Shown: one piece after another, positions 1 through 14,412 of the stretch | Layout of the letters: each line of letters opens with the position of its first letter | How positions within the stretch are numbered: position 1 is the stretch's first letter | From: a virus | DNA: 24,508 nt | Virus record (IMG/VR): IMGVR_UViG_3300007160_000002 | Span: 1 to 24,508 of that record | Direction: 5' to 3' (one strand) | The notes under the pieces: generated by a model | What the model was told of the DNA's origin: nothing | The model's database searches: none | What the model saw: the letters and a program-made list of their open reading frames with translations, nothing else | Position numbers and translations under genes: made by a program

Positions 1-22
1 GGTCTACTGTTACTTGATTCAT
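1..22 (-). CDS. Start of a small leftward gene, cut by the window edge
   Basis: Only seven codons are visible (MNQVTVD). The ATG overlaps the TGA stop of the gene to its right as ATGA, and an AAGGA-type ribosome site lies 7-8 bases upstream, so translation is probably coupled to that gene. Nothing can be said about function. Confidence 0.55.
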
Positions 23-587: not shown

Positions 588-835
588 GAGTGTGACTCCT
601 GTTGGATACGTAGTAGGGCTGAGCGTACGAAACGACAAACACCAGAGTAATGAAGTTGGATATTCTTGAAGTCTTCATCATCCATTGTTAGCTCTGCACC
701 GTGGTTTGTAGCTACTAGTTTGGCTAGTTGTTGGCGACTGACATTACCTTGGTCGATTGAATCGAAGATGGTGTTTTTGATGCTGATATCTTTGTCAGCC
801 ATCAGTGCTTTACGTGAGTATTGTTGGTCACTCAT
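584..835 (-). CDS. Hypothetical protein, 83 aa
   Basis: The start at 835 has AAGGA eight bases upstream. The protein is soluble and mainly helical. Residues 33-44 (VSRQQLAKLVAT) resemble the first helices of a small helix-turn-helix, but the pattern is too weak to call DNA binding. The C-terminus (CRFVRSALLRIQQES) forms a basic amphipathic helix. The stop overlaps the next gene's ATG as ATGA. No family recognised. Confidence 0.65.
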   Translation of the reverse strand: MSDQQYSRKALMADKDISIKNTIFDSIDQGNVSRQQLAKLVATNHGAELTMDDEDFKNIQLHYSGVCRFVRSALLRIQQESHS

Positions 836-892
836 TATAGGGTTCCTTGTAGGTTGGATTTAGCGAGGATTTTTAACACGTGGTATGTAGGT

Positions 893-1036
893 TTACTTAG
901 GAGCAATCACTTTCTTGAAATGTCCATAGCGCTGCTTTGCTCTACGTTCAGCAGCTCTCTTGTTGCCGGCTACAACATAGCCGTGCATCACAAAGTTTCC
1001 CATGTAATACACGACTCCCCAGCATTTCATGCTCAT
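893..1036 (-). CDS. Small basic protein, 47 aa
   Basis: This short frame was read directly from the sequence. ATG at 1036 overlaps the upstream stop as ATGA and AGGA lies eight bases before it; the TAA stop is at 893-895. The product begins MSMKCWGVVYYMGNFVMHGY and ends in a strongly basic helix (NKRAAERRAKQRYGHFKK). A hydrophobic or aromatic first half with a basic second half could bind nucleic acid or membrane. No family recognised. It fills what would otherwise be a gap of about 200 bases. Confidence 0.6.
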   Translation of the reverse strand: MSMKCWGVVYYMGNFVMHGYVVAGNKRAAERRAKQRYGHFKKVIAPK

Positions 1037-1335
1037 TTTACGGTTCCTATTAGTGCGTTAATTTTCAAATAGTTACATACTTCCTCATATGACGAAGTCA
1101 TAACTCGTTCTGGCTCAACCTTTGGCATGTCTTCACGATATTCTGATTCGTCAAACGCATCCCAAGGGTCGTCACCCACTGGCCACAATGCTGCATCCTG
1201 ACCATTGTAGCCGCAGAAGTTATTAACTGTGTTTTGGTCATAAACATAGTACCCATACTCATCATCAACAATGACTAGGAAGTGAAACTTACCGTCCTTA
1301 GCTTGCTTACGTTCAATACGATATTGCTTATCCAT
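1033..1335 (-). CDS. Acidic hypothetical protein, 100 aa
   Basis: The ATG at 1335 follows GGAG by nine bases, and the frame continues upstream only through a TTG. After a basic start (MDKQYRIERKQAKDGKFHF) come beta-like segments (FLVIVDDEYGYYVYD), then a Trp/Asp-rich acidic stretch (DDPWDAFDESEYRED) and a C-terminal helix (SSYEEVCNYLKINALIG). Highly acidic small phage proteins often act as DNA mimics or inhibitors of host proteins; that is only a general possibility. A GAA-triloop hairpin at 1088-1102 lies inside its 3' end. Confidence 0.65.
   Translation of the reverse strand: MDKQYRIERKQAKDGKFHFLVIVDDEYGYYVYDQNTVNNFCGYNGQDAALWPVGDDPWDAFDESEYREDMPKVEPERVMTSSYEEVCNYLKINALIGTVK
1088..1102 (-). 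promoter_or_regulatory. GAA-triloop hairpin near a gene end
   Basis: TATGAC/GTCATA around GAA on the + strand, preceded by CCTCA. This resembles the CCTGT-hairpin sites at 3479 and 3903, although the spacing is one base shorter. It lies in the last third of the leftward gene at 1033-1335, about 50 bases before the start of the 47-aa gene at 893-1036, so it could drive the leftmost genes. Confidence 0.35.
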
Positions 1336-1513
1336 GCGTTTGTGCTCCAAGCACGTTGAAGACTTGTACTAGTGTTGGCACCCATATAGCTAGTACTACG
1401 AATGTGACAAAGCTAACACCAGCTTCAAAACCGTTAGCACAATTAAGTACGTTACGGAAACATATGACCATTGCTAGTATTATGGACAGTATTAGTAGAG
1501 CGATAGTTACCAT
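1328..1513 (-). CDS. Two-helix membrane protein, 61 aa
   Basis: ATG at 1513 overlaps the upstream stop as TAATG, with an AAGGA site about ten bases upstream. Two hydrophobic segments are clear: residues about 3-20 (TIALLILSIILAMVIC) and about 31-55 (SFVTFVVLAIWVPTLV), joined by a short loop with two Cys nearby. This predicts a hairpin-like inner-membrane protein. It is adjacent to another tiny hydrophobic gene, so the two may act together, for example in membrane stress, exclusion or antiholin-like roles. No family recognised. Confidence 0.6.
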   Translation of the reverse strand: MVTIALLILSIILAMVICFRNVLNCANGFEAGVSFVTFVVLAIWVPTLVQVFNVLGAQTHG

Positions 1514-1656
1514 TATTGTGTGTCCTTTGGTTTGTTGTACTTTTTGAAGTTGGTTTGGATGATGGTCATTATTGTTACGTTCCATACTGTTACTCCAAGA
1601 CCAACGATATAGTCGCCCTGTACGATGGAATAAATGCCATTGAATAAGCCGACCAT
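1513..1656 (-). CDS. Small hydrophobic protein, 47 aa
   Basis: The start at 1656 is preferred because GGAG lies five bases upstream; an ATG at 1704 would add 16 residues but has no ribosome site and would overlap the upstream gene. The product (MVGLFNGIYSIVQGDYIVGL...) has one hydrophobic stretch around residues 15-35 and a Lys-rich C-terminus. Its TAA overlaps the next ATG, so the two membrane genes are translationally coupled. A GC-rich inverted repeat (GCCACC TT GGTGGC) sits just before the ribosome site and might modulate initiation. Confidence 0.5.
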   Translation of the reverse strand: MVGLFNGIYSIVQGDYIVGLGVTVWNVTIMTIIQTNFKKYNKPKDTQ

Positions 1657-1687
1657 TGCGACTCCGCCACCAAGGTGGCCAAGGATT

Positions 1688-2095
1688 TTAGTCGATAGGT
1701 GCATAGAGTTCTGCCATGTTGATGATGTAGTTCAACCACATCTTACGGTTAGTGATGTACGCTGCACTTCTGTTTTGGCGTATAGGGTTATAGCCTATTT
1801 CACTGATGACATGAGCATAGCTTTCGTCTATGAAATCATTGATGAATGCTGAACATTCTGTTTCGTAGCCGTAGTTGTGATAAACAAACTCTTGTCCAAG
1901 TACCTTCAGTACATTGACTGAGTAATTGCTGTATGCATAACGAGGTAAGCGAACACACGTGTAATGGTGTGGCTTAGCTAGTTGGTTACCAGTGTGAAGA
2001 GTAAGCATACGCTTAGCTGCTTTGGCTATCGTACGTAGTGAATCAGGATTTCTCTTCAAGATATCAATACGCCAAGCGTTAGGTTGTTGGTGCAT
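1688..2095 (-). CDS. Hypothetical protein, 135 aa
   Basis: ATG at 2095 has AAAGGAG eight bases upstream, a strong site. The protein starts MHQQPNAWRIDILKRNPDSL, is basic in its first half (AKAAKRMLTLHTGNQL) and aromatic in its second (EFVYHNYGYETECSAF). It is one of the larger products on this side. The fold appears alpha-rich with no membrane segment. No motif that names a family is visible. It is the first gene after a strong hairpin at 2117-2145, which may separate it from the upstream gene. Confidence 0.7.
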   Translation of the reverse strand: MHQQPNAWRIDILKRNPDSLRTIAKAAKRMLTLHTGNQLAKPHHYTCVRLPRYAYSNYSVNVLKVLGQEFVYHNYGYETECSAFINDFIDESYAHVISEIGYNPIRQNRSAAYITNRKMWLNYIINMAELYAPID

Positions 2096-2116
2096 AATAA
2101 GTTCTCCTTTAAATGC

Positions 2117-2145
2117 GGAAAACACACCAAAGGTGTGTGTTTTCC
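2117..2145 (-). terminator. Strong hairpin, candidate leftward terminator
   Basis: An 11-base arm GGAAAACACAC pairs perfectly with GTGTGTTTTCC; the inner CACACC/GGTGTG bases allow alternative pairing with an AAA loop. Read leftwards, the 3' arm contains TTTT but no long T tract follows. It lies in the 64-base gap between two leftward genes, so it may end or attenuate transcription, or protect an mRNA end. Confidence 0.5.
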
Positions 2146-2159
2146 GACAGGTACATTGG

Positions 2160-2474
2160 CTACTTCTCAAGCAAGAAGCATTTACTGCGTGACAGGTAAA
2201 TCTTCTTACCTATTTTCTCTTCTCTACCAGTTAGTCTGTTCACCATGACTGGTGCATGAATTACGAAGCCCTCTTCATACCCACCAATGGATACATCGTC
2301 ACCATAGATGACATAGTTGATATCGTTGATTTCACACAGTGCTGTGTACTGGTACTTAGTCTTGTCTATCAATGGTTGAGCAGATGCTGTTGGAGCAAAC
2401 ACCAGTGCGAATAGTATGATGCATACCACTATTGCAGCGTAGGCAATAGCTAACTTAACGTTGTTGTCTAACAT
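2160..2474 (-). CDS. Secreted or periplasmic small protein, 104 aa
   Basis: From ATG 2474 the protein has a short N-region with one Lys, a long hydrophobic core (AIAYAAIVVCIILFALVF) and an APTASA|QP signal-peptidase I type site near residue 33. The mature part (about 70 aa) looks beta-rich and contains two cysteines (ALCEIND and SKCFLLEK) that could form a disulphide. GGGAG lies 11 bases upstream, rather far. Export by a phage early gene suggests a periplasmic role, such as blocking superinfection or acting on the envelope, but no family is recognised. Confidence 0.65.
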   Translation of the reverse strand: MLDNNVKLAIAYAAIVVCIILFALVFAPTASAQPLIDKTKYQYTALCEINDINYVIYGDDVSIGGYEEGFVIHAPVMVNRLTGREEKIGKKIYLSRSKCFLLEK

Positions 2475-2698
2475 AGTAATACTGACTCCCAAATATGTTC
2501 AGAGAGGCTGGAGAGTAACTCCTCCACTCTCACCTGATTCGGTTCATAAGGCTTTGCGCTTAGTTCAAGACGGTCACTGATTTCAGTTGTTGGTGTGATA
2601 CCACAACGATTACGATGACCATCGTTTTCAAGGGTGAATGACTTCAACCACTCACCAGTTTGTAGATTGCGAAATGCATACTTAGCTGGTTCTGGCAT
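2468..2698 (-). CDS. Hypothetical protein, 76 aa
   Basis: GAGGAG lies six bases before ATG 2698, so the seven extra upstream codons in frame are ignored. The protein begins MPEPAKYAFRNLQTGEWLKS, with a beta-like N-terminal half and a helical acidic C-terminal half (VRVEELLSSLSEHIWESV). The FRNLQTGEWL stretch resembles small beta-sheet add-on domains but does not name one. It overlaps the next gene by seven bases. The gap upstream holds a perfect hairpin at 2716-2740. Confidence 0.6.
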   Translation of the reverse strand: MPEPAKYAFRNLQTGEWLKSFTLENDGHRNRCGITPTTEISDRLELSAKPYEPNQVRVEELLSSLSEHIWESVLLC

Positions 2699-2715
2699 AG
2701 CTATCTCCTCAAGTG

Positions 2716-2740
2716 CCAATACGCTCAGAGAGCGTATTGG
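2716..2740 (-). promoter_or_regulatory. Perfect 11-bp hairpin with AGA triloop
   Basis: CCAATACGCTC pairs without mismatch with GAGCGTATTGG around an AGA loop. It fills the 51-base gap between two leftward genes. No T tract follows in the leftward direction, so a simple intrinsic terminator is unlikely. The purine-only triloop on the + strand resembles the other candidate hairpin promoters in this window, although the stem is longer. RNA processing or a structured leader are alternatives. Confidence 0.4.
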
Positions 2741-2749
2741 ATAGGTTAA

Positions 2750-2995
2750 TTAGATTATGTCGCTGTACTCGGTAACGATGTCAGAGATTTCATCCATTTC
2801 CATCATTGTGTAATCAAGGTGCTTGAGGTAGCTGTCGCTCTCAACCCCGTACTGAATGTCCATGAACTTATCGAGAATTACTTCATCGACTGGTTGCATT
2901 AACTGAGTAGCTGAGAAGCATGCTGATTGGTTAGTTGCACAGATGATGAACTCATCACCTGCATCAAGTGTTGGAACTGCGATTGTATGTGCCAT
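2750..2995 (-). CDS. Acidic hypothetical protein, 81 aa
   Basis: GGGAG precedes ATG 2995 by nine bases. After MAHTIAVPTLDAGDEFIICA comes a Met/Asp/Glu-rich C-terminal half (LDYTMMEMDEISDIVTEYSD). The strongly negative charge suggests a DNA mimic or an inhibitor of a basic host protein, as with several small early phage proteins, but nothing specific is recognised. It begins three bases after the upstream stop, in the same transcription unit. Confidence 0.65.
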   Translation of the reverse strand: MAHTIAVPTLDAGDEFIICATNQSACFSATQLMQPVDEVILDKFMDIQYGVESDSYLKHLDYTMMEMDEISDIVTEYSDII

Positions 2996-2997
2996 AG

Positions 2998-3189
2998 TTA
3001 TTTACTCCCACGTGTGTCGTCTACTTCGATTGTGCTTAGTAGTGCCATTGCTAATTGGTATGTTTGGTAGTTATCAAGGTGCACAGTAGCTGTGCCCTCA
3101 GTGTCTTTGATAGTGATAAAGGGATTACCATCATAAGTCTCATCATCTACTTCGATGTGACCACTTGGTGTGTTGAAGCGTTTAGTCAT
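2998..3189 (-). CDS. Hypothetical protein, 63 aa
   Basis: ATG 3189 overlaps the upstream TAA (TAATG) and has AAGGA nine bases before it. The product has a beta-hairpin-like start (TPSGHIEVDDETYDGNPFIT) and a helix (YQTYQLAMALLSTIEV). It is small, acidic and soluble. No motif assigns a function. It is coupled to the HTH-like gene upstream. Confidence 0.6.
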   Translation of the reverse strand: MTKRFNTPSGHIEVDDETYDGNPFITIKDTEGTATVHLDNYQTYQLAMALLSTIEVDDTRGSK

Positions 3190-3377
3190 TACTTAAAGTC
3201 CTTCAAGTCACTGTAATCAAGTGAGTACATTGAACAGATGGCCTTACGTGATACACCACTCTTCAGTAGAGTACGGATATTGTTAGCACTCTCAGTATCT
3301 AGTACTCGCTTATGCTGACGTAGTGCATGCATACCACGAGTGAAATGAGGTGCAGTAGTTTTAATGTGCTTGTCCAT
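3189..3377 (-). CDS. Putative small helix-turn-helix protein, 62 aa
   Basis: AGGAG six bases before ATG 3377 fixes the start. The N-terminus is basic (MDKHIKTTAPHFTRGMHALR). Residues about 36-58 (LLKSGVSRKAICSMYSLDYS) fit a helix-turn-helix: a hydrophobic first helix, the SRKAI turn helix, then a recognition-like helix. This suggests a DNA-binding regulator, but the match is by eye only. It is the first gene after the hairpin promoter candidate at 3479-3498, with a leader of about 100 bases. Confidence 0.6.
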   Translation of the reverse strand: MDKHIKTTAPHFTRGMHALRQHKRVLDTESANNIRTLLKSGVSRKAICSMYSLDYSDLKDFK

Positions 3378-3478
3378 AGCTATCTCCTGTAGTGAGATTG
3401 TAGGTTGGATGAATGGAGAGAGTGAGATGTAGGTACAGGGCAAAACACTGCTAGTTAGCCTGATTGTTCACCTGCTCT

Positions 3479-3498
3479 CCTGTATAGCACGGAGTGCT
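3479..3498 (-). promoter_or_regulatory. Candidate hairpin promoter, N4 vRNAP type, leftward
   Basis: On the + strand (template for leftward transcription) CCTGTAT is followed by the stem AGCAC/GTGCT around a GGA triloop centred at 3492. N4 virion RNA polymerase is known to recognise 5-7 bp hairpins with a 3-base loop and a purine at -11 on the template. That geometry puts the start near 3481, about 104 bases before ATG 3377. The site at 3903-3923 shares the same core. The assignment is inferred from structure and from repetition in the window. Confidence 0.5.
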
Positions 3499-3539
3499 CT
3501 CCCTCCATACCAAAGGCTATCTTAGGTGTATTGTTTAGT

Positions 3540-3560
3540 AGGAGCCCATACAGGGCTCCT
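3540..3560 (-). terminator. Hairpin after the gene at 3572, candidate terminator
   Basis: AGGAGCCC pairs perfectly with GGGCTCCT around ATACA, starting 12 bases past the stop of the leftward gene at 3572-3871. The following leftward sequence is A/T-rich without a true T run, so it is at best a weak intrinsic terminator. It lies just before the hairpin promoter candidate at 3479-3498, so the two could separate transcription units. Confidence 0.5.
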
Positions 3561-3571
3561 GAGAGGTATTG

Positions 3572-3871
3572 TTATTCTGCTGTTTTGAACTCTGCGATTT
3601 GAGAGTTGATTTCGTTACGCAGGATTACTTTGACATCCTCTGGAATGTCTGATGTTTCGATGTCTTGTAGCTTGTCAGCTAGTTCTTCTAGTGCATCGAA
3701 GTTATCGTTGAATGTAGTTAGGCGTGACTTGGTAGCTTGTCTGCGTGCTGACCAGTCAGTGTACTCACGTGATGCATCTGCCATTGCGTCACCACCTAGG
3801 TTGATGAAGCCTGTGATGATGTTCATTAGTGAGATGAATGCTTTGAATAGTGCTTTGATTGCTTTGAACAT
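3572..3871 (-). CDS. Helical, possibly membrane-associated protein, 99 aa
   Basis: GAGG eight bases before ATG 3871 selects this start over an open extension upstream. The first 25 residues (MFKAIKALFKAFISLMNIIT) form an amphipathic or hydrophobic helix that could lie on or in the membrane. The rest is a charged, probably coiled-coil region (DNFDALEELADKLQDIETSD). No family recognised. It stands alone between a hairpin terminator candidate on its left and a hairpin promoter candidate 33 bases upstream of its start, so it may be separately expressed. Confidence 0.65.
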   Translation of the reverse strand: MFKAIKALFKAFISLMNIITGFINLGGDAMADASREYTDWSARRQATKSRLTTFNDNFDALEELADKLQDIETSDIPEDVKVILRNEINSQIAEFKTAE

Positions 3872-3902
3872 AGTTGTATCCTCAGTAGTTAGGGCATGAT
3901 TG

Positions 3903-3923
3903 CCTGTATAAGACGAAGTCTTA
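3903..3923 (-). promoter_or_regulatory. Candidate hairpin promoter, N4 vRNAP type, leftward
   Basis: CCTGTA is followed by the stem TAAGAC/GTCTTA around a GAA triloop centred at 3916. It matches the site at 3479-3498 at 14 of the first 20 bases, including CCTGTATA and AC-G-x-A-GT. With the known N4 geometry the start would be near 3905, 34 bases before ATG 3871. It lies in a 150-base intergenic stretch that otherwise holds only a G run and an A/T-rich tract near 3990. Confidence 0.55.
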
Positions 3924-4021
3924 GGTGTAAGTACGGGGGGGTAGGTTCTTTCTGAGGTGTAAAATGTGTTATCACTACAGTCATACAAAATAATTAAAAT
4001 TTTGAAAAAACCTGCGACCCC

Positions 4022-4258
4022 TCAGTTCACTACTACAGGGCTGTTGGTGATGAGTACCATTGTCTGCACATGTTTCTTAATCTTAGGGTCAGTGATGGTT
4101 ACTGTTATGTTTACTTTGCTTTCGTATAGGTGCCCCACTAATCTACGTTTCTTACCTCTACTTCTTTTGAATATTTCAGCGTACTGTTCGCATGACGCTA
4201 GTACAGTGATATAGCAACCATTTGGTAGTAGGGGTTCTATTACATCTTTCAAAGGCAT
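4022..4258 (-). CDS. Tandem-family small protein, last of the array, 78 aa
   Basis: AGGAG lies seven bases before ATG 4258, which overlaps the upstream stop as TGATG. After a short N-region (MPLKDVIEPLLPNGCYITVL) there is a basic loop (KRSRGKKRR) and a C-terminal segment (KKHVQTMVLITNSPVVV) that resembles the array signature helix-LVHDI-strand. It is the most diverged member and has the most basic middle. It is the final gene of the coupled array in the direction of transcription. Function unknown. Confidence 0.65.
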   Translation of the reverse strand: MPLKDVIEPLLPNGCYITVLASCEQYAEIFKRSRGKKRRLVGHLYESKVNITVTITDPKIKKHVQTMVLITNSPVVVN

Positions 4259-4512
4259 CAGTCTGCTCCTATCACACGTATGTCATTTATCGCACAGATT
4301 GTCTGTATGGCTTTGAAGTACTCTGGGTGGGTATCGATATGGTTTCGATTCAATCTAACGACAGCGATTGATACAGGGAGTTTGTTGCGGTCTACCCCTG
4401 ATATGGAGGCAATGAAGTTCTTATCCACAGAGGAGTAGATACCGCCTGTGTCGGGGAATACATTCAAATCATGTGGTTTGAGTGCTAGTGCTAGTTCAAG
4501 TATTGTCATCAT
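4258..4512 (-). CDS. Tandem-family small protein, 84 aa
   Basis: The start at 4512 (ATGATG) overlaps the upstream stop as ATGA and follows GAGGTGAG directly. The C-terminus (EYFKAIQTICAINDIRVIG) is a clear example of the array signature, with Asn-Asp in place of His-Asp. The middle (GGIYSSVDKNFIASISG) matches the paralogues' paired strands. A longer frame upstream adds 29 residues but ignores the coupled start. Confidence 0.7.
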   Translation of the reverse strand: MMTILELALALKPHDLNVFPDTGGIYSSVDKNFIASISGVDRNKLPVSIAVVRLNRNHIDTHPEYFKAIQTICAINDIRVIGAD

Positions 4513-4751
4513 CTCACCTCGAAGCCATGAACGAGTGCTAGGGTCTTGAATAGCGCTTTTACTTCCATGGACAGGTAGTGACTGAAATGGCCTACCCATG
4601 CAATTACAAATGTATCGGAAGTACTATCACCTATGATTCTGGTGGCAGAGTAGTAACCAATCAGTTCGGTATGGCCGTTGGCATAGATACAACCTCCTCG
4701 GAGGTACATAGATTCTTTACGTAGTATTTCGTTTAGTTCATCAGTAGTCAT
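4509..4751 (-). CDS. Tandem-family small protein, 80 aa
   Basis: ATG 4751 overlaps the previous stop as ATGA, with GAGG about ten bases upstream. MTTDELNEILRKESMYL gives the typical N-terminal helix, CIYANGHTELIGYYSAT the strand pair with the family's IGY motif, and EVKALFKTLALVHGFEV the C-terminal signature ending directly at the stop. It is close to a minimal complete member of the family. Confidence 0.72.
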   Translation of the reverse strand: MTTDELNEILRKESMYLRGGCIYANGHTELIGYYSATRIIGDSTSDTFVIAWVGHFSHYLSMEVKALFKTLALVHGFEVR

Positions 4752-5011
4752 ATCTTGAATGCCTCGTCTATTACCCTGAGTGGTATGTCGTATTTCTTGC
4801 AGACTTCTTTAAGGGTTTTGATTTCGTTGACGTAAGGTTGTGCATGCTTGCGTAGAACAATGTGAGTTACTGTTGGTGGTTCCATACCGGTTCTATGAGA
4901 AGCATGGGCAAAAGCTATTGATACAGCTTCCCTGTCAATTTTTATAGTACCGTTCGGATTCAGGTAGATATGGTACTTAGCCAATATTCCTGCTAGATGA
5001 ACCCTTAACAT
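4748..5011 (-). CDS. Tandem-family small protein, 87 aa
   Basis: GGGAG six bases before ATG 5011 supports the start, and the gene overlaps the upstream stop by seven bases. The N-helix (MLRVHLAGILAKYHIYL) and C-terminal EIKTLKEVCKKYDIPLRV fit the family, with YDI instead of HDI and one extra helical turn. A His-rich middle (AFAHASHRTG) is specific to this copy. Confidence 0.7.
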   Translation of the reverse strand: MLRVHLAGILAKYHIYLNPNGTIKIDREAVSIAFAHASHRTGMEPPTVTHIVLRKHAQPYVNEIKTLKEVCKKYDIPLRVIDEAFKI

Positions 5012-5280
5012 GTCAGACTCCCTATTGGTATGTCATGGATTACAGCCAAAGCAGTGATTTGTTTGATAAGGTCATTGAGCTCTTCATGTGCTGCATCATT
5101 TATACCTTGCAAACGTGGTACTGGGATAGGACGGAAGAAGTTAACTTCCTGTTCTTCACTGTGTCGGTTGAAGTCGAGGTAGCCTATACGCATTTGGTCG
5201 TAATACAGGTTGCCCGAGGATGGGAATACTGCCACACCCAGCGGGCCGGTAATGAGTTTGATGAATTGAAGGTAGGTCAT
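5005..5280 (-). CDS. Tandem-family small protein, 91 aa
   Basis: ATG 5280 is in an ATGA overlap and has GGAG six bases upstream. MTYLQFIKLITGPLGVAVF, then NLYYDQMRIGYLDF, then LIKQITALAVIHDIPIG show all three family blocks in order. The insert between the strands (FFRPIPVPRLQGIN) is Pro-rich and particular to this member. Confidence 0.72.
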   Translation of the reverse strand: MTYLQFIKLITGPLGVAVFPSSGNLYYDQMRIGYLDFNRHSEEQEVNFFRPIPVPRLQGINDAAHEELNDLIKQITALAVIHDIPIGSLTC

Positions 5281-5519
5281 GAGTTCTCCAATACTATGAT
5301 TTTGATGTCGTGGACTAGGCAGAGTGTTTGTAGCTCTTTCATATTCGGGCCATCGAGTGATGCTTTAAGAAGGTTTATTTGTACTAGATTTAAGGGATGC
5401 CCCCAGCTAAAAGCACATACGCCAATTTTACTGCCACCATACCGGTACAAACCACCAGAACTAGTTATGTGATAACCCAGTGGATTGAATATGATTTCGT
5501 TAGCTTCGCTTTTGGTCAA
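5277..5519 (-). CDS. Tandem-family small protein with TTG start, 80 aa
   Basis: No early ATG exists in this frame. The TTG at 5519 is chosen because GGGGAG lies nine bases upstream and the resulting start (LTKSEANEIIFNPLGYHI) aligns with its neighbours (MTKQEFEEAC and MTYLQFIKL). A GTG at 5540 with a more distant AGGAG is the alternative and would give 87 aa. The strand block (GLYRYGGSKIGVCAFS) and the ending MKELQTLCLVHDIKIIV are classic for the array. Confidence 0.68.
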   Translation of the reverse strand: MTKSEANEIIFNPLGYHITSSGGLYRYGGSKIGVCAFSWGHPLNLVQINLLKASLDGPNMKELQTLCLVHDIKIIVLENS

Positions 5520-5775
5520 AGAATTGTTCTCCCCATTCACCGCGTATTGATGCTCCTTTTAACTCATGAATCATTATTAGTGTGCGCAACGCTTTAAAGC
5601 ATTCAAGTTCACTGGTAGATTCAAGCAGGAACACCCTTTGTATGTTTCCCTTCCAATCTACAGTTACATAGCCAATTTGATGGGAGTAGCCATAGTTACG
5701 GTAGATACGTAGATTTCTTGGATGGAACCACACCCCGACCCCTCGGCATGCTTCTTCGAATTCTTGTTTAGTCAT
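5500..5775 (-). CDS. Tandem-family small protein, 91 aa
   Basis: GAGGG six bases before ATG 5775 sets the start, and there is an eight-base overlap with the upstream gene. MTKQEFEEACRGVGVWF, NYGYSHQIGYVTVDWKG and ECFKALRTLIMIHELKG represent the three family blocks. After the signature it has an extra C-terminal tail (RGEWGEQFFDQKRS) that overlaps the next gene and may simply be read-out of the overlap. Confidence 0.7.
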   Translation of the reverse strand: MTKQEFEEACRGVGVWFHPRNLRIYRNYGYSHQIGYVTVDWKGNIQRVFLLESTSELECFKALRTLIMIHELKGASIRGEWGEQFFDQKRS

Positions 5776-6046
5776 GAAGTGCCCTCGGTTGGTTACAATA
5801 GACGCTTACTGTGTCTTCTAGGTTGTTGATGAGAATCAGTGCTTTTAGTTCTTTGGTTAGCTCTGGGTCTTCTAAACGGATGCGAAGGCCATAGTCATAG
5901 TCATACGTCATACCACCTACTGCACGACCTTTGTCTGATTTACGTAAGTGCCATACGGCACCTAGTTGACTGTCTTGAATGGCCTGGTATCCGGGCATCC
6001 AAGGTAGGATAACCTTATGTACCAGTTCATAGATGGAGTACCTCAT
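5768..6046 (-). CDS. Tandem-family small protein, 92 aa
   Basis: ATG 6046 is in an ATGA overlap after GGGGG. The N-helix is longer than usual (MRYSIYELVHKVILPWMPG). The middle contains AVGGMTYDYDYGLRIRL and the C-terminal part ELTKELKALILINNLEDTV fits the signature with Asn-Asn for His-Asp. An extension of 15 residues follows. Confidence 0.7.
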   Translation of the reverse strand: MRYSIYELVHKVILPWMPGYQAIQDSQLGAVWHLRKSDKGRAVGGMTYDYDYGLRIRLEDPELTKELKALILINNLEDTVSVYCNQPRALHD

Positions 6047-6294
6047 TCATAACCCCCGAATAAGTGGCATTCCCATATGGTGGTGTTTAATAAAATAAGG
6101 AGTTCTCTGTATTTAGAGCTCTTGTACACAGTTAATGACTTGGCTAAATCATCCTCACGGCTGTAGCGGAAATACCCATAGATTGGCCCTCGTCCGTAAT
6201 CACCTAGCTCGATGATGTACCATTGGGTCTTTGACCGTTCTAACTGCAAGCCATGTACTTCAAGGTCCTTGTTGATTTTGGATAAGGTATTCAT
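6043..6294 (-). CDS. Tandem-family small protein, diverged, 83 aa
   Basis: AAGGA eight bases before ATG 6294 and an ATGA overlap fix the start. The N-helix and strands are recognisable (NKDLEVHGLQLERS, then GPIYGYFRYSRED), but the C-terminal signature is degraded to KYRELLILLNTTIWECHLFG. It is placed in the family by position and order of elements more than by the signature itself. Confidence 0.65.
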   Translation of the reverse strand: MNTLSKINKDLEVHGLQLERSKTQWYIIELGDYGRGPIYGYFRYSREDDLAKSLTVYKSSKYRELLILLNTTIWECHLFGGYE

Positions 6295-6518
6295 TCGATA
6301 ATCCTTTGCTCATGCAGAGTACACATGGCCCTTAGATGATTGGCTCCGTATGCAATAACAAACCCTCTTGGTTTATCGGTCCTACCATCATAGGAAAGGA
6401 AACCTACCCAATCATTTTCGTAATGTAAGTCACGACCATTAGCTATCTTTCCACCAATACGGTATCCAAAGTGACGCTTGAGCATGATTAGGAAGTGACT
6501 TGATTTCATCTGTGCCAT
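6291..6518 (-). CDS. Tandem-family small protein, 75 aa
   Basis: AGGAG eight bases before ATG 6518 favours it over an ATG nine bases later that would form an ATGA overlap. SSHFLIMLKRHFGYRIG, YENDWVGFLSYDG and NHLRAMCTLHEQRIIE give a compact member that ends two residues after the signature. A basic, Gly-rich turn (GGKIANGRD) separates helix and strand. Confidence 0.68.
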   Translation of the reverse strand: MAQMKSSHFLIMLKRHFGYRIGGKIANGRDLHYENDWVGFLSYDGRTDKPRGFVIAYGANHLRAMCTLHEQRIIE

Positions 6519-6808
6519 ACGCCTGGCTCCTCTCGACAGTCGTGCTTTGTAAAAGGGACCCCATGTATAGTGAAGTGAGCCATCAACTCTTTCTCTACCG
6601 GCAACCCTCGTATACTGAGTACTACGTACTCTGTGATTTCTCCAGTGGTCCAGTCACCACTACTACTGAGGATGCCAATGTTAAGACCAGCCCATACAAT
6701 AAAATCCGAATCATCGATACGGCAGGCTGCAGCTTTTACTGCTTTGGCTACGTTCTGGTGAAAGGTATTCATACACGGTACTGATTCAGTATTTGATAAC
6801 TTCGACAT
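6506..6808 (-). CDS. Tandem-family small protein, 100 aa or 88 aa
   Basis: Two starts are possible: ATG 6808 with a weak GGTGG site and a 23-base overlap, or ATG 6772 with no clear site but better agreement with the lengths of the paralogues (MNTFHQNVAKAVKAAACRI). The signature is KELMAHFTIHGVPFTKHD. Strands are seen in IVWAGLNIGILSS and EYVVLSIRG. The C-terminal tail overlaps the next gene. Confidence 0.6.
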   Translation of the reverse strand: MSKLSNTESVPCMNTFHQNVAKAVKAAACRIDDSDFIVWAGLNIGILSSSGDWTTGEITEYVVLSIRGLPVEKELMAHFTIHGVPFTKHDCREEPGVWHR

Positions 6809-7004
6809 TGTTTACCACCATTACTGCAGCTATTTCACGACTACAGGTTTTTACTTGATAGATAGCCTCATCGCTATAGATACCAAAGTGCTCGCCTACG
6901 TCAGCGTAGTAAAAACCATAGGTCATGTTGTTTTTGATTATGTGGCCTTTAAGGAATCGATATCCACTTCCTCTCAGGATTTCTTGAGCTTGATGAAGCA
7001 ACAT
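6786..7004 (-). CDS. Tandem-family small protein, 72 aa
   Basis: GAGG five bases before ATG 7004. At 72 residues it is among the shortest members: MLLHQAQEILRGSGYRFL, then TYGFYYADVGEHFGIYSD, then CSREIAAVMVVNNVEVIKY. Asn-Asn replaces His-Asp in the signature. Its first 56 bases overlap the end of the upstream gene in a different frame. Confidence 0.68.
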   Translation of the reverse strand: MLLHQAQEILRGSGYRFLKGHIIKNNMTYGFYYADVGEHFGIYSDEAIYQVKTCSREIAAVMVVNNVEVIKY

Positions 7005-7266
7005 AATGGCCTCGTTTGGTTATAGTAGTACTGAAGTTGGAACGTTCGATATCGAATATGGCAGCGATAGCGAATATCTTCTTATCGGTTTCTGAAATGA
7101 ACTCTTCCTGGAAGTCACTACAGTTTAGGTCTACTACTTTGAATTCTGAGTTCATACGGAAGATGAGTGGAGAGTTAGGGAAACGTAGGTAGTAACCGCT
7201 ATGCAACACTGGCAAGCCGGAGGCTTCCAGTGCGCCGCGAACGTCTTGCATTGTTGGTTTAGTCAT
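6949..7266 (-). CDS. Tandem-family small protein, 105 aa
   Basis: AAGGA six to seven bases before ATG 7266 sets the start; 24 in-frame residues upstream lack support. TMQDVRGALEASGLPVL, GYYLRFPNSPLIFRMNSE and KKIFAIAAIFDIERS fit the family plan with FDI for HDI. A 25-residue basic and Ser-rich tail follows the signature, inside the overlap with the next gene. The region around its codons 12-20 forms a strong GGA-loop hairpin at 7207-7232. Confidence 0.65.
   Translation of the reverse strand: MTKPTMQDVRGALEASGLPVLHSGYYLRFPNSPLIFRMNSEFKVVDLNCSDFQEEFISETDKKIFAIAAIFDIERSNFSTTITKRGHYVASSSSRNPERKWISIP
7207..7232 (-). promoter_or_regulatory. Intragenic hairpin with GGA triloop
   Basis: CACTGG-C-AAGCC pairs with GGCTT-CCAGTG around GGA, giving 11 pairs with one bulged C. 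It lies near the start of the leftward gene at 6949-7266. It may be a further hairpin promoter for the genes to the left, an RNA structure, or an effect of codon choice. The CCTGTATA core of the two intergenic sites is absent. Confidence 0.3.
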
Positions 7267-7576
7267 AGTAGGTCCTTTTGTGTTGACGACCTTCTTCCCA
7301 CGCGACATGAGGTTTGGAACCAATGGTGCGATGAGCAAGTTCCTCTTTCATGAGGTCAATTGCTTCGCGTATATACTGGTGAAAATCAGGTCTGTCGGCA
7401 TGGGATTCTCTGGTTCTAACCAAGGTGCGTTCGAAAGAATCCAGCATGTTATACAGCCCTTCATCAGTCATAGAGCCCACAGCTTCGTGTAGGTCCAGCT
7501 TTGGGTAAGTCTTCATGATGTTTGGGTTATAGGTAACCCCATCAGACTTACGCTCTAAGTGCGTAGTTTTCGTCAT
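7259..7576 (-). CDS. Helical hypothetical protein, 105 aa, second small family
   Basis: AGGA seven bases before ATG 7576. Unlike its neighbours it is all-helical. After an N-terminal segment (MTKTTHLERKSDGVTYNP) comes MTDEGLYNMLDSFERTLV and, about 35 residues on, IDLMKEELAHRTIGS. The gene at 8625-8840 shows the same two blocks with similar spacing, so these two are probably paralogues inserted between members of the larger array. Function unknown; a short coiled-coil dimer is plausible. Confidence 0.68.
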   Translation of the reverse strand: MTKTTHLERKSDGVTYNPNIMKTYPKLDLHEAVGSMTDEGLYNMLDSFERTLVRTRESHADRPDFHQYIREAIDLMKEELAHRTIGSKPHVAWEEGRQHKRTYYD

Positions 7577-7859
7577 CAGATATTCCTCGTTCCCTAATGC
7601 CTTCAGTAAACTCTATGTCGTGTAATAAACAAAACACGCGAAGCGCTGTTTTTAGTTCCTCAGACGGTTGATTAACGTAGAAAACCCGAATCTTATTCTC
7701 TGCGTGGATATACTGAGCTGCCGCTTTATTTCCCACGATTGGTTCAACAAACAAACGGTTTTTCAAACTAGGGTAGTACGTTACGTGGTACTCGGGCATA
7801 TGCTCGAACAAGTAGTTATTTAAAGTTTGCTCGATTGTCTCGATATCGTCCTTTTTCAT
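7548..7859 (-). CDS. Tandem-family small protein, 103 aa
   Basis: GGAGAAG shortly before ATG 7859 selects this start; the 30 in-frame residues upstream are inside the previous gene. The acidic N-helix (MKKDDIETIEQTLNNYLF), the strands VTYYPSLKNRLFVEP and KIRVFYVNQ, and the signature SEELKTALRVFCLLHDIEF make it one of the best members. The codons for the signature (about 7631-7652) form a GAA-loop inverted repeat. Confidence 0.72.
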   Translation of the reverse strand: MKKDDIETIEQTLNNYLFEHMPEYHVTYYPSLKNRLFVEPIVGNKAAAQYIHAENKIRVFYVNQPSEELKTALRVFCLLHDIEFTEGIRERGISDDENYALRA

Positions 7860-8145
7860 AGTGTTTCTTCTCCAATGGACATGGGTCACGAGTGTAGACA
7901 TACCCCAAAACCTCAATGCCATGTAACATACAGTGCATTCGTACTTCATCCATTTCAGGCGAACGACACCAAAAGTTTACTTTGAGGACAATGGTTTGTT
8001 TATGTATGGTCCTCTTAAAAGCGACGTAGGCTCCGATGATATTCCCGCCGGTACAGTCCTTGTGGTCAAGGAAGATGTAGTTACTTTTACGGTTATGGCG
8101 GATTCGAAGTCTTTGTAACAAGTCGTAAAATTCATCAGCAGTCAT
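7816..8145 (-). CDS. Tandem-family small protein, 109 aa
   Basis: ATG 8145 follows AGGAG by five bases and overlaps the upstream stop as ATGA; a GTG six bases earlier is not needed. MTADEFYDLLQRLRIRHN, then GGNIIGAYVAFKRT, then MDEVRMHCMLHGIEVLGYV carry the family pattern. A basic tail (KKHYEKGRYRDNRAN) of about 25 residues overlaps the next gene. Confidence 0.72.
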   Translation of the reverse strand: MTADEFYDLLQRLRIRHNRKSNYIFLDHKDCTGGNIIGAYVAFKRTIHKQTIVLKVNFWCRSPEMDEVRMHCMLHGIEVLGYVYTRDPCPLEKKHYEKGRYRDNRANFK

Positions 8146-8387
8146 ATCCACTCCTGTACTGTTATCTCATGCAGAACGCACGCGGCGCGGAGCGCAAGGG
8201 TGCGTTCGTCATCAAGATTATCTATATGAACTCCCACCACGTAAAAATCCCCATCCCAATCAACATTATCAGTAACGGTATCTACGTGGGCTATGATTTC
8301 ATCGTCGATGTAAATGGTGTCGTTACCCACGTGGTATTCATAATCCAGTGGTTTAAGTATTTCGAAGAATTGGCGGTCAGTAATCAT
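8142..8387 (-). CDS. Tandem-family small protein, 81 aa
   Basis: ATG 8387 overlaps the upstream stop (ATGA), with GGGGAG about ten bases upstream. MITDRQFFEILKPLDYEYHV, NDTIYIDDEIIAHVDT and RTLALRAACVLHEITVQEW are the three blocks; it is strongly acidic. Its 3' end contains a large imperfect hairpin with a GGA loop (8174-8207). Confidence 0.72.
   Translation of the reverse strand: MITDRQFFEILKPLDYEYHVGNDTIYIDDEIIAHVDTVTDNVDWDGDFYVVGVHIDNLDDERTLALRAACVLHEITVQEWI
8174..8207 (-). promoter_or_regulatory. Large imperfect hairpin with GGA loop
   Basis: The outer stem GAACGCAC/GTGCGTTC (8 bp) and inner stem GCGC/GCGC (4 bp) are separated by a small internal loop and capped by GGA. It lies inside a leftward coding region, about 30 bases before the next coupled start at 8145. 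It could be an intragenic hairpin promoter or an mRNA structure influencing coupling. No conserved upstream core is seen. Confidence 0.3.
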
Positions 8388-8665
8388 TGTAGGTCCACTC
8401 CCCATAAGACCATCCAAACACGCAGTTGTTTACGTGGGCCTGTATTGCCTACGATTTTAACATCATGCACTTTATTGAAAGTTTCTTTGGTAACAGGATT
8501 CATGTGCTCCACAGTTCGAATAGTAGCCAGCATAAGCGGCTGGTCAGTTTGAGTTGGATTACGTTTGCGTGGATTTACAAGCGACCAATATCCATTCCCG
8601 AGGCTTCGAAGTTCAGCCCCTGGCTCAACATCCTCCACCTTCAGCAACAGGTCGGTTATTAGCAT
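8384..8665 (-). CDS. Hypothetical protein, possibly a diverged array relative, 93 aa
   Basis: The ATG at 8665 is chosen since AGGAG lies six bases upstream; an ATG at 8671 would abut the GGAG. The protein starts MLITDLLLKVEDVEPGAELR and contains GNGYWSLVNPRKRNP and KETFNKVHDVKIVGNTG, the latter faintly like the array signature but placed internally. The C-terminus (RKQLRVWMVLWGVDLQ) is Trp-rich. I treat it as an outlier, not a sure family member. Confidence 0.62.
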   Translation of the reverse strand: MLITDLLLKVEDVEPGAELRSLGNGYWSLVNPRKRNPTQTDQPLMLATIRTVEHMNPVTKETFNKVHDVKIVGNTGPRKQLRVWMVLWGVDLQ

Positions 8666-8840
8666 AGTCATCTCCTGCTATTAGGCGCATGGTGAGTTCT
8701 TGTTTGGCTTGGTCAAGCCATTCTTGAACTGTTGGTGCATGTTCTTCAGCTACTGCATCCATCATACTTTCGTACTTTTCCACGGTTTGGCGCAACTGTT
8801 CAGTGGTGAACATACTAAAGTCGTGCTTTTTTTCGCTCAT
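8625..8840 (-). CDS. Helical hypothetical protein, 71 aa, second small family
   Basis: GGGGGAGG seven bases before ATG 8840 is a very strong ribosome site. The blocks MFTTEQLRQTVEKYESMMDA and WLDQAKQELTMRLIAGDD parallel those of the gene at 7259-7576, ending in EL-x2-R-x-I-x-G. The product is soluble, acidic and helical. It overlaps genes on both sides by 26 and 41 bases. Function unknown. Confidence 0.68.
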   Translation of the reverse strand: MSEKKHDFSMFTTEQLRQTVEKYESMMDAVAEEHAPTVQEWLDQAKQELTMRLIAGDDYANNRPVAEGGGC

Positions 8841-9156
8841 GATACACCTCCCCCATGATATGGCACCACGCCGAGAGTCTGGCATCATCTACTAAGAACT
8901 TGTTGTAGTATGGATTGTAAATACCGAGGTAATCGCCATTCAATCGAACATGTACACAGCGCATAGTAAAATGAGGTGAAAATGCCGCTATAGTGACTGG
9001 CATACTAAGGCTGACCTGGAATCCGTGCGATTTTAGTTGAGCCTCCATAGCGTGTCGCAAATCCAACTGCTTTTTGTACGCTGCGTTGCTTTTCTGCCGG
9101 CGCTGATTGAGTTCGGGCAATTCTTGCTGTCCAGTATTTTGCAAGGATGATGTCAT
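8815..9156 (-). CDS. Hypothetical protein, possible array relative with N-terminal extension, 113 aa
   Basis: GGAG lies ten bases before ATG 9156. Residues from about 37 (MEAQLKSHGFQVSLSM, then VHVRLNGDYLGIYNPYYN, then RLSAWCHIMGEVY) follow the helix-strand-strand-helix plan of the tandem array. The first 36 residues (polar, Gln-rich) are extra. Those 36 codons overlap the upstream gene by about 150 bases in another frame, so a start at ATG 9048 is possible, although it lacks a ribosome site. Confidence 0.55.
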   Translation of the reverse strand: MTSSLQNTGQQELPELNQRRQKSNAAYKKQLDLRHAMEAQLKSHGFQVSLSMPVTIAAFSPHFTMRCVHVRLNGDYLGIYNPYYNKFLVDDARLSAWCHIMGEVYHERKKARL

Positions 9157-9385
9157 CGGGGTACTTCTCCAAATAATACTCTTTCACTATTACCAAGGGG
9201 CAATTGTAGAGTGTAAATCCTAGGGCAGTGGCTACACCTTGTAGGTGCAGACGACTATGGTATTCGAGTTCCATAACCTTGCTGTAGTCCGAGATTTTCA
9301 ATTCCGGGTAATAGGGCAAGATACGTGTTTCGAAGTAAGTCTTAGTTGCGTCCCTAACCCGTGAAGGTGTGTTTAAGGTTTTCAC
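9005..9385 (-). CDS. Hypothetical protein with GTG start, 126 aa
   Basis: GTG 9385 follows GAGGG by eight bases. The first two thirds look like a folded helical domain (MELEYHSRLHLQGVATALGF, then VIVKEYYLEKYPDDI). The last 45 residues (TQSAPAEKQRSVQKAVGF...) are low-complexity and basic, and coincide with a 150-base overlap with the next gene. One of the two overlapping segments is probably not under strong selection. No family recognised. Confidence 0.55.
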   Translation of the reverse strand: MKTLNTPSRVRDATKTYFETRILPYYPELKISDYSKVMELEYHSRLHLQGVATALGFTLYNCPLVIVKEYYLEKYPDDIILAKYWTARIARTQSAPAEKQRSVQKAVGFATRYGGSTKIARIPGQP

Positions 9386-9713
9386 TTAGTGTGCCCTCTT
9401 GTTGGACACCGATAAGCCTCATAGCCATATGTTCAAGGCATTGGTCGTATCGGATTAGTAAAAGTTCTGCACGATGTTGTTGGTCTATTTTGCTTTTGTG
9501 CCATTCCAATGCATCCTCAAGGTCTTCTTTACGGCGCTTCAGTTCATTCATGCCTAGGTTTTTACAACCGTATTCACGGTCTTGAATTACTTGAACCCCA
9601 TCACACGTAATCCAGCGATAAGACACATACGATGAATTCATTGAGTCTTTGCACATGTACTCAGGGGTTTCAATAACAGTCCCATCAAGCAGGACTAGTG
9701 TTGGTTTGTCCAT
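9354..9713 (-). CDS. Hypothetical protein with C-terminal coiled coil, 119 aa
   Basis: The ATG at 9713 is strongly supported by GGAAGG eight bases upstream and begins five bases after the previous stop. The longer frame from a GTG at 9848 would overlap the previous gene by 130 bases. The N-terminal half is beta-like (MDKPTLVLLDGTVIETPEYM) with several Cys; the second half is a charged helix (ELKRRKEDLEDALEWHKSKI) ending HMAMRLIG, recalling the EL..R.IG ending of the second small family. Confidence 0.65.
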   Translation of the reverse strand: MDKPTLVLLDGTVIETPEYMCKDSMNSSYVSYRWITCDGVQVIQDREYGCKNLGMNELKRRKEDLEDALEWHKSKIDQQHRAELLLIRYDQCLEHMAMRLIGVQQEGTLSENLKHTFTG

Positions 9714-9718
9714 GTACG

Positions 9719-9934
9719 TTACCTTCCAGTAGGTGACTTGAGTATCCCAATGGTACGTAGAGTCAAAACAGTCTTTAACATATTCATGCGTTTTTCCGTA
9801 GCCAGCGGGGGTAAAGGAAAGCCTCTGTCCATTCTCCAACGAATCCACTCAGTTGAGGCATCGTTGTAGCGTTGCCACACATCGCCTAACTCTGGGTGTG
9901 GGTTATACTGTTGAATCGAATTTTCGCCAGCCAT
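9719..9934 (-). CDS. Hypothetical protein, 71 aa
   Basis: GGGAGG six bases before ATG 9934 fixes the start. MAGENSIQQYNPHPELGDVW is followed by an Arg/Trp-rich helix (ASTEWIRWRMDRGFP) and KRMNMLKTVLTLRTIGILKS, whose end resembles the R-x-IG motif of neighbouring helical proteins. Soluble and basic. No family recognised. Confidence 0.65.
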   Translation of the reverse strand: MAGENSIQQYNPHPELGDVWQRYNDASTEWIRWRMDRGFPLPPLATEKRMNMLKTVLTLRTIGILKSPTGR

Positions 9935-10289
9935 GTTCTGCCTCCCATTTATGACGTTGTGGTCTGAATTGGCTTCCAGTACCGGTAGCCCACCCGGGCA
10001 TACCGATTGCAATTTTGGCCAAGTCTTCTTTACCAATCCCGAATGCCACTGTTCCGTGCGGGTGACAAACCTGAGTCATTTTCTTATATAACGCTTCCGC
10101 GGCTTCATGCACGCTGTGTGGGTAATTAGGGTCGATACGAATTTCTTTGGGACGGCGCATAAATAATTTGCTGCCTTTATACTTGCAGGAACCACTAATT
10201 AAATAGGCTGTGTCTTCCATTAGGTAATTGTACCCATGCTCGTATTTGAACAGGACACGAAACTTATGTTCGGGATTTAGTAACGACAT
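9903..10289 (-). CDS. Hypothetical protein, 128 aa
   Basis: GAGG is about seven bases before ATG 10289. The protein (MSLLNPEHKFRVLFKYEHGY...) is mixed alpha/beta, with a helix in HSVHEAAEALYKKMTQVC and a Gly-rich segment (AFGIGKEDLAKIAIGMPGWA). His and Cys are clustered at VCHPHGTV, which might bind metal, but there is no full ligand set. The C-terminal 32 bases overlap the next gene. No family recognised. Confidence 0.65.
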   Translation of the reverse strand: MSLLNPEHKFRVLFKYEHGYNYLMEDTAYLISGSCKYKGSKLFMRRPKEIRIDPNYPHSVHEAAEALYKKMTQVCHPHGTVAFGIGKEDLAKIAIGMPGWATGTGSQFRPQRHKWEAEHGWRKFDSTV

Positions 10290-10545
10290 TGATGACCTCT
10301 TGGATATCTACCTTAGGTTCATCATGACGACGTGATATTTGAGTAAGTGGAACCCATTGGTCACCAAACTTCATCATCATAATGTCACCGTATTCAGCAA
10401 GGTATTTGTTCAGGGTTGAACGTTGCAGTTTCAGGTGCTCAGCTACGTGAGACTTATTGCCGTAAAATTTGATTAGCAATTCGGAAACCAGTGAGACTTC
10501 CATCTGAGCTGTACGAGGTTCGTGATTATTAATTGCGCGAGACAT
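10264..10545 (-). CDS. NinH/Fis-like helix-turn-helix DNA-binding protein, 93 aa
   Basis: GGAG seven bases before ATG 10545, which overlaps the upstream TAA (TAATG). Residues about 15-50 contain LVSELLIKFYGNKSHVAEHL followed by QRSTLNKYLAEYG, the arrangement of lambda NinH and Fis-type HTH proteins: helix, GNKSxVAExL helix, turn, and recognition helix RSTLNKYL. It is probably a transcription regulator or recombination accessory factor. It is the second gene of the leftward unit, a usual place for an early regulator. Confidence 0.7.
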   Translation of the reverse strand: MSRAINNHEPRTAQMEVSLVSELLIKFYGNKSHVAEHLKLQRSTLNKYLAEYGDIMMMKFGDQWVPLTQISRRHDEPKVDIQEVINVVTKSRT

Positions 10546-11150
10546 TATTCTCTCCAAGGTGGGTGTTGTGTTTTAGTTACTATTAGGGGTTCTTCAGTCG
10601 GTTCAGCATTTCCGTTGGAGTCAAATTCAATGGACTCGTCTGGTCCGGCGTGTACACCAAGCCGTGCTGTGTGACTACCGACAGTTCCGATACCCGTGCC
10701 GCTGCCAAAGATGTTTGCCTTAGGGCTTCCAAATGGGTTGCCTGGGCTGCTGAGAGTAGTGAATTGTGGGCTAGGTTTGCTGCTCTTTCCTGTTGTGGGG
10801 TCAAGCCGAAGAGACTCCTTACGGTCTTCATACAACCAGTCAAATCCAGAGTTCATATCAATGGTTTCTTCAGCCTTGATTTGTTCTTCGGTTACTTTTT
10901 CTAAACGGTCCACACTGAGACAGTCGATGTACTTACGGAGTAAGTGGAACTCATCTTTATCCAACTGGTATTTAGCAGGTACGAGTGTGCAATCTGCAAC
11001 GGGTACTGTTTCTACATGTCGCTGCCCATTAGTAGTGCGCAACGTAATAAATTTTTCTACACCACCTTCTTCGATGGTAACGGCAATCCGCCATTGGTAA
11101 GCTGGGTTCTTTCCATCCCAATGAGGATTTTTCATGCGGTAGTATTTCAC
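10545..11150 (-). CDS. Hypothetical protein with P/S/G-rich tail, about 201 aa
   Basis: First gene of the leftward side. The start is uncertain: GTG 11150 has GGAG nine bases upstream, while GTG 11183 or 11216 would add 11-22 plausible residues, the last lying inside a hairpin; ATG 11135 has no ribosome site. The N-terminal half looks like a folded alpha/beta domain (YQWRIAVTIEEGGVEKFITL) with a helix LDKDEFHLLRKYIDCLSVDR. The C-terminal 80 residues are low-complexity (SSPGNPFGSPKANIFGSGTG). No family recognised; an early protein or a regulator with a flexible tail is possible. Confidence 0.65.
   Translation of the reverse strand: MKYYRMKNPHWDGKNPAYQWRIAVTIEEGGVEKFITLRTTNGQRHVETVPVADCTLVPAKYQLDKDEFHLLRKYIDCLSVDRLEKVTEEQIKAEETIDMNSGFDWLYEDRKESLRLDPTTGKSSKPSPQFTTLSSPGNPFGSPKANIFGSGTGIGTVGSHTARLGVHAGPDESIEFDSNGNAEPTEEPLIVTKTQHPPWRE
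10931..10945 (-). promoter_or_regulatory. Intragenic GGA-triloop hairpin
   Basis: ACTTAC pairs perfectly with GTAAGT around GGA on the + strand. It shares the AC-GRA-GT centre of the two intergenic promoter candidates but not their CCTGTATA core. It lies inside the first leftward gene. Function uncertain; a hairpin promoter for the downstream leftward genes is one possibility. Confidence 0.3.
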
Positions 11151-11203
11151 TGTACATATCTCCAGTACTGTAAATTCTTCCACCTTACTAGTGGAATGGA
11201 ATA

Positions 11204-11238
11204 ACCCTAATACCACCCCTAGCGGGGTGGATTAGGGT
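11204..11238. promoter_or_regulatory. Long GC-rich hairpin in the divergent control region
   Basis: ACCCTAAT-A-CCACCCC pairs with GGGGTGGATTAGGGT (15 pairs, one bulged A) around TAGC. It stands between the divergent leftward and rightward units. No T tract follows on either side, apart from a T5 about 15 bases to the right. It could be a leader hairpin, a terminator against read-through, or part of a genome-end structure. It overlaps a possible GTG start of the leftward gene. Confidence 0.45.
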
Positions 11239-11312
11239 ATCAGGCAATTGTTTTTCTGACTATTCGGAAATTATCGAGGTGTCATTCACGAAAGTTCGGA
11301 AAAACCGCAAAG

Positions 11313-11329
11313 AACCCGCGAAGCGGGTT
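11313..11329 (-). promoter_or_regulatory. GAA-triloop hairpin, possible leftward vRNAP promoter
   Basis: AACCCGC/GCGGGTT, a perfect 7-bp stem with a GAA loop, lies upstream of the whole leftward unit. The purine at the loop centre on the + strand fits an N4-type template-strand hairpin for leftward transcription, with a start near 11310. TATACT and TATGAT sequences at 11329-11339, directly to its right, could serve as -10 elements for the rightward late unit, but no -35 is visible. The alternative is a terminator-like hairpin. Confidence 0.4.
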
Positions 11330-11373
11330 ATACTATGATATTGTTACTACACAATCCCTACAGAGAGACTCTC

Positions 11374-14401: not shown

Positions 14402-14412
14402 GGAGACTACTC

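Follow-up and report, generated by a model that had tools for sequence, protein, structure and literature searches.

The stretch of DNA analysed here (the window) is an IMG/VR virus contig of 24,508 bases (IMGVR_UViG_3300007160_000002), which we read as a fragment of an N4-like Vibrio phage, and our subject is a tandem array of small genes at positions 4022-8387 of it. The terminase protein of the window shares 98.5% identity with its counterpart in Vibrio phage vB_VspP_SBP1 (SBP1), classified on record in the genus Electravirus of the Schitoviridae, and 80% with that of oyster-associated Vibrio phages such as D497; in addition, a gp69-like gene and PhoH stand in the same order as in SBP1, in keeping with the N4-type gene order. 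On these sequence grounds the window comes from a marine Vibrio phage of N4-like (Schitoviridae) type. The array is on the minus strand and diverges from the terminase side; by position it corresponds to the early region that in D497 and K477 precedes the RNA polymerase genes, and to the region of genes 1-14 in N4.

The interval is filled by 17 minus-strand open frames, g01-g17, whose products have 72-109 amino acids given the starts chosen (the start of g06 is uncertain, GTG at 5540 or TTG at 5519, and an alternative ATG start at 8145 is possible for g16). Adjacent frames overlap at all 16 junctions, by 1-56 nucleotides. A first-pass annotation had described about 15 diverged paralogues with starts coupled by ATGA overlaps. 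The count was nearly right: permutation-controlled profile comparison places 14 of the 17 genes in one family, here termed family A, and leaves out g01, g09 and g14. The coupling by overlap likewise stands for every junction, whereas an ATGA overlap of exactly 4 nucleotides is found at only seven.

Family A and its predicted fold

Membership was judged by aligning each gene, together with its orthologue where known, by hhalign against a core profile that excluded that gene, with column-permuted alignments as the control; 11 flanking groups (u1, u5-u13 and g25) served as further controls. The genes of the array are as follows.

4022..4258, minus strand, g01: final gene of the array, of unproven family; z 4.1, probability 5.2
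4258..4512, minus strand, g02: family A; z 16.5, 0/25 permutations; absent from SBP1
4509..4751, minus strand, g03: family A; z 17.1, 0/25; absent from SBP1
4748..5011, minus strand, g04: family A; z 7.2, 0/25, against the larger core; its first 45 residues are orthologous to SBP1 gp092
5005..5280, minus strand, g05: family A; z 10.5, 0/25
5277..5540, minus strand, g06: family A; z 11.9, 0/25
5500..5775, minus strand, g07: family A, the modelled member; z 11.8, 0/25
5768..6046, minus strand, g08: family A; z 6.3 against the first core and 7.1 against the larger core, no permutation as high
6043..6294, minus strand, g09: unrelated gene within the array; z 1.3 against family A, negative
6291..6518, minus strand, g10: family A; z 7.0, 0/25
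6506..6808, minus strand, g11: family A; z 7.0 against the first core and 10.0 against the larger core, no permutation as high
6786..7004, minus strand, g12: family A; with its unannotated SBP1 orthologue z 6.4, 0/40; 76% identical to the SBP1 frame
6949..7266, minus strand, g13: family A; group g13+S82+D103+X101+K107 z 15.5, 0/15
7259..7576, minus strand, g14: family B (see below); z 5.7 against the B core, -0.1 against A
7548..7859, minus strand, g15: family A; z 11.1, 0/25
7816..8151, minus strand, g16: family A; z 13.7, 0/25
8142..8387, minus strand, g17: family A, charge -15; z 12.2, 0/25

Against the first core 11 genes gave a clear result, namely g02, g03, g05, g06, g07, g08, g10, g11, g15, g16 and g17 (z 6.3-17.1, 0/25 permutations each). 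All 14 members lie outside both the permuted and the flanking controls: the 11 flanking groups reached at most z 3.5 against family A, and one of them, u6, reached 3.8 in the later test of g01 and g12. Taken alone g13 is not significant; its positive result comes from the group that it forms with its relatives in D497, D517 and K477. The match of g01 is no better than that of u6 (z 3.8, probability 5.1), and it was left uncalled; none of the upstream genes tested, g18-g25, matches family A. Mean identity among the members is 18%, and weak links are already seen in an all-against-all BLAST comparison (e.g. g06-g07 and g07-g17, E <0.001). A profile seeded with four orthologue pairs recovered 17 proteins, all from the window, SBP1, D497 and K477. 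Across the 6,491 frames of the compared loci the same profile found no further strong member, and a wider profile found nothing convincing beyond these four phages.

The recurrent plan of family A is an N-terminal helix, a sheet and a C-terminal helix ending approximately in LxxxCxLHxI, with the remainder of the protein and its charge varying. An AlphaFold model of g07, built from 15 sequences, has the order alpha-beta-beta-beta-beta-alpha-beta with a low-confidence tail (predicted local distance difference test, pLDDT, 76.8; predicted template modelling score, pTM, 0.67). In BFVD, a set of independently made viral models, its six best matches are all SBP1 proteins, the first with 72% identity and the other five with 17-20%, the sixth-ranked still having a probability of 0.87; length and identity were the sole basis for assigning these to array genes. 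The models thereby support the single expanded fold proposed in the first-pass annotation, and a predicted fold shared across family A is supported. DUF8033 accounts for 3 of the best 50 BFVD rows, with E of 0.7-2.2. A fold search of 594 PDB chains gave a best E of 0.28 and Z no higher than 3.6, an absence that is no proof of a new fold, and a PDB profile search with family A gave one match at chance level. A HicA-like fold, suggested by its helix-strand order, had no Pfam match in support and was set aside without direct comparison. Scans of PHROG, Pfam, NCBIfam and PADLOC, libraries that are incomplete for anti-defence proteins, returned no family for the array. We found no description of the array in a literature search that left subscription papers and preprints largely outside its scope, and the main text of the SBP1 paper makes no mention of paralogue, duplication or tandem; family A appears to be previously undescribed.

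Net charge across the window members ranges from -15 (g17) to +6, which argues against one common nucleic-acid ligand. A different form of nucleic-acid role would have the members act as binding or transcription-tuning early proteins, each with its own phage or host site or RNA. The early position, an isoelectric point (pI) above 8.5 in 4 of the 14 members (g04, g07, g10 and g16) and the helix-turn-helix (HTH)-like character of the leading gene g25 are compatible with such a role, but 7 of the 14 have a pI below 6.5, g17 is strongly negative, and no array member matches an HTH or RNA-binding family in the library scans. Hence, we regard this alternative as decidedly unlikely.

Promoter-like hairpins, turnover and selection

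The virion polymerase of N4 reads template-strand hairpins, in which the bases it recognises are a purine at -11, G at both -10 and -8, and C at +1 (PMC4496689); LUZ7-type phages carry similar hairpins (PMC3715699). A search for hairpins with a stem of at least 6 and a GRA loop in 13 Schitoviridae stretches found 52 template-strand hairpins and 6 on the opposite strand, against 0.00-0.35 per stretch in shuffled controls. The window has four (at 1088, 3909, 10931 and 11313), all on the template strand and all with a 3-base loop with a central purine, including the following.

11313..11329, plus (template) strand: candidate virion-polymerase promoter upstream of the array, GAA loop; identical in SBP1
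10931..10945, plus (template) strand: hairpin in the first gene of the leftward unit, GGA loop; not among the SBP1 hairpins found
3909..3923, plus (template) strand: hairpin directly after the array, GAA loop; counterpart with an identical flank in SBP1

Host sigma-70-type promoters at window positions 1-12000 were fewer than in shuffles. As strand-specific hairpins that are promoter-like, though not proven promoters, flank the array, it probably lies within an immediate-early operon. In early regions template-strand GRA hairpins number 6 in D497, 6 in K477, and 7 and 10 in two further stretches, while N4 has three reported promoters; the marine relatives with many such hairpins may have many early start sites.

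The gene order of the array is conserved between the window and SBP1. No SBP1 counterpart exists for g01, g02 and g03, and no window counterpart for SBP1 gp085 and gp088, while the orthologues of g12 and g15 are intact unannotated SBP1 frames (8757-8975 and 9510-9824, both on the minus strand of the SBP1 stretch). About 70 bases after the array are conserved in SBP1, so that the three-gene block g01-g03 sits cleanly between g04 and the trailer. SBP1 gp092 resembles the start of g04 joined to an end like that of g03, a likeness that is only suggestive. Among the other relatives one family B gene of D517 is missing from D497, just 26% of the D497 array has a megablast-level match in K477, and family A members number about 5 in D497 and about 4 in K477 by the profile tests used here. 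The copy-number variation in related phages that the first-pass annotation had raised is thus seen both between the window and SBP1 and between D497 and D517, with close relatives differing by single genes or small blocks. IMG/VR scans with orthologue pairs returned SBP1 only, and a scan of genome contigs returned no match.

Of the 11 window-SBP1 orthologue pairs measured for family A, 10 have a ratio of nonsynonymous to synonymous divergence (dN/dS) of 0.15-0.45, and the remaining pair (g04) is saturated; this constraint implies that each copy is in use. Diversifying selection, which the first-pass annotation had suggested, gives way here to purifying selection, and the divergence among the paralogues is old, not recent. 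Synonymous divergence across the 11 pairs is strongly uneven (0.33-0.70, chi-square p 2.1e-06). This suggests that genes have been exchanged one by one, although an uneven spread is also seen among late and other genes (p 0.0015). Such unevenness, as a sign of exchange, together with the frequent gain and loss, would be expected if the array were a largely neutral expansion in which copies form, drift and are exchanged but have little function. However, dN/dS is well below 1 in those 10 pairs, the apparent SBP1 gaps at g12 and g15 hold intact frames, and the unevenness extends to genes outside the array, so we consider a largely neutral expansion very unlikely.

Family B and neighbouring genes

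A second, helical family, family B, consists of g14, g19, g22 and g23 of the window with D497 gp100 and gp105 and K477 gp103 and gp106 (z 3.5 to 12.3). Besides g14, its window members are:

8625..8840, minus strand, g19: family B; group z 12.3 against B
9354..9713, minus strand, g22: family B, the weakest member; z 3.5 against B, 0/15
9719..9970, minus strand, g23: family B; group z 12.2 against B; present in D517, absent from D497

For g19 the model shows a hairpin of two helices at modest confidence (pLDDT 71.8), and the only good match to it is the SBP1 orthologue of g19. One group, composed of D497 gp107 (15882-16115), D517 gp106 (9447-9671) and K477 gp109 (14348-14575, each in the coordinates of its own stretch), matches both family A (24 columns, z 14.1) and family B (34 columns, z 4.1), and the two families have a similar closing helix, by eye approximately LRTxxLLHGI. 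This dual match hints at a shared C-terminal helix or at exchanged gene ends, and the likeness may reflect homology, end exchange or a shared contact. A shared contact would suit a model in which family A members assemble together, or with family B, as a hetero-oligomer acting on phage DNA, RNA or a polymerase, their diversity being subunit specialisation rather than a matter of different host targets; the overlapping cistrons are co-expressed in such a model, and in N4 two early products, gp1 and gp2, serve as polymerase cofactors (PMC4496689). Yet a fixed complex would not easily tolerate the absence or addition of single members or blocks between close relatives, and by the tests used D497 and K477 have only the few members given above. 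We therefore judge the hetero-oligomer unlikely.

Several other genes deserve mention. In the leftward unit g25 (10264-10557, minus strand) follows 10545-11216 as the first small gene; it encodes an HTH-like protein with NinH and Fis-type matches that is kept in SBP1, D497 and K477 and is a candidate early regulator. The leftward unit of SBP1 is headed by an HNH homing endonuclease gene (12564-13079, minus strand, of SBP1), the end of which D497 gp091 resembles (E 3e-5). On the plus strand, window positions 14392-18882 encode a predicted tail fibre of 1496 amino acids, the same place in SBP1 being occupied by a far shorter gene of 2541 bases, and positions 20720-23002 encode a tail-fibre-like protein with long cysteine-rich repeats (CNCGIACGN-type), unusual in a phage fibre.

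Function of the array and comparison with known systems

We favour, at about an even chance, the reading that family A is a repertoire of small early binders that block different host or defence proteins, the targets being inferred. The small size, early position, overlaps, single-member turnover, constraint and charge spread fit binders of different partners better than one nucleic-acid role. The first-pass annotation had already proposed that the members inhibit different host or defence proteins, a proposal that is plausible given the indirect support from the early position, the promoter-like hairpins, the turnover of single genes and the spread of charge. Several observations weigh against it: 1) The PADLOC, Pfam, NCBIfam and PHROG scans tie no member to any known inhibitor or to a family linked with defence. 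2) Two of the 13 Schitoviridae stretches have no template-strand GRA hairpin. 3) In the window the G at -8 needed by the N4 polymerase is found only at 11313 and the C at +1 only at 1088, as against two of three N4 hairpins with both. 4) The dN/dS values show no arms-race signature, and flanking early genes outside family A evolve as fast (0.14-0.54, with the terminase at 0.03).

On this reading the virion-carried polymerase would probably transcribe the array once the DNA enters, from template-strand hairpin promoters. One small alpha/beta gene would have been duplicated repeatedly long ago, and at least 14 of the resulting paralogues would survive today as overlapping cistrons. With the scaffold retained, each member would bind and block a different host or defence protein, and single members would be gained and lost as hosts change. 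A more far-reaching version, which we offer tentatively, is that of a scaffold library: an undescribed alpha/beta family in at least 14 copies in one operon driven by the virion polymerase, each copy retargeted and cassettes exchanged singly among Vibrio phages, with a second, helical family in the operon that may share its C-terminal contact element. Early phage proteins are for the most part uncharacterised singletons, whereas here 14 variants of one scaffold occur in one unit; with the differing sets in sister phages, they would allow changes in sequence to be related to changes of target. Should the members be inhibitors, they would offer a ready way to screen for new defences of bacteria and for host proteins that are vulnerable.

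Large eukaryotic DNA viruses have arrays of diverged paralogues of variable copy number near their genome ends; these multigene families are unrelated and encode larger proteins, so that the analogy is one of arrangement only. The early region of N4 (genes 1-14) resembles the array in its genome position, in its many small genes before the RNA polymerase genes and in hairpins of the virion-polymerase type, but it includes the polymerase cofactors gp1 and gp2, and a profile search of the N4 stretch yielded no family A member. Paralogue expansions of the present kind have already been described in archaeal rudiviruses, where the close duplicates of AcrID1 are interpreted as functional diversification (PMC11065993). 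Like the array, the AcrID1 family (SIRV1, SIRV2 and SIRV3) consists of small early viral proteins, with many diverged paralogues close together in one genome. It differs in that at least one member is a proven anti-CRISPR, in that the SIRV2 early genes have individual promoters where the array has overlapping cistrons, and in belonging to an unrelated archaeal virus, with no sequence link to family A seen in the library scans, which did not compare AcrID1 itself. In arrangement, rather than in membership, AcrID1 is the closest described analogue of the array among the systems considered.

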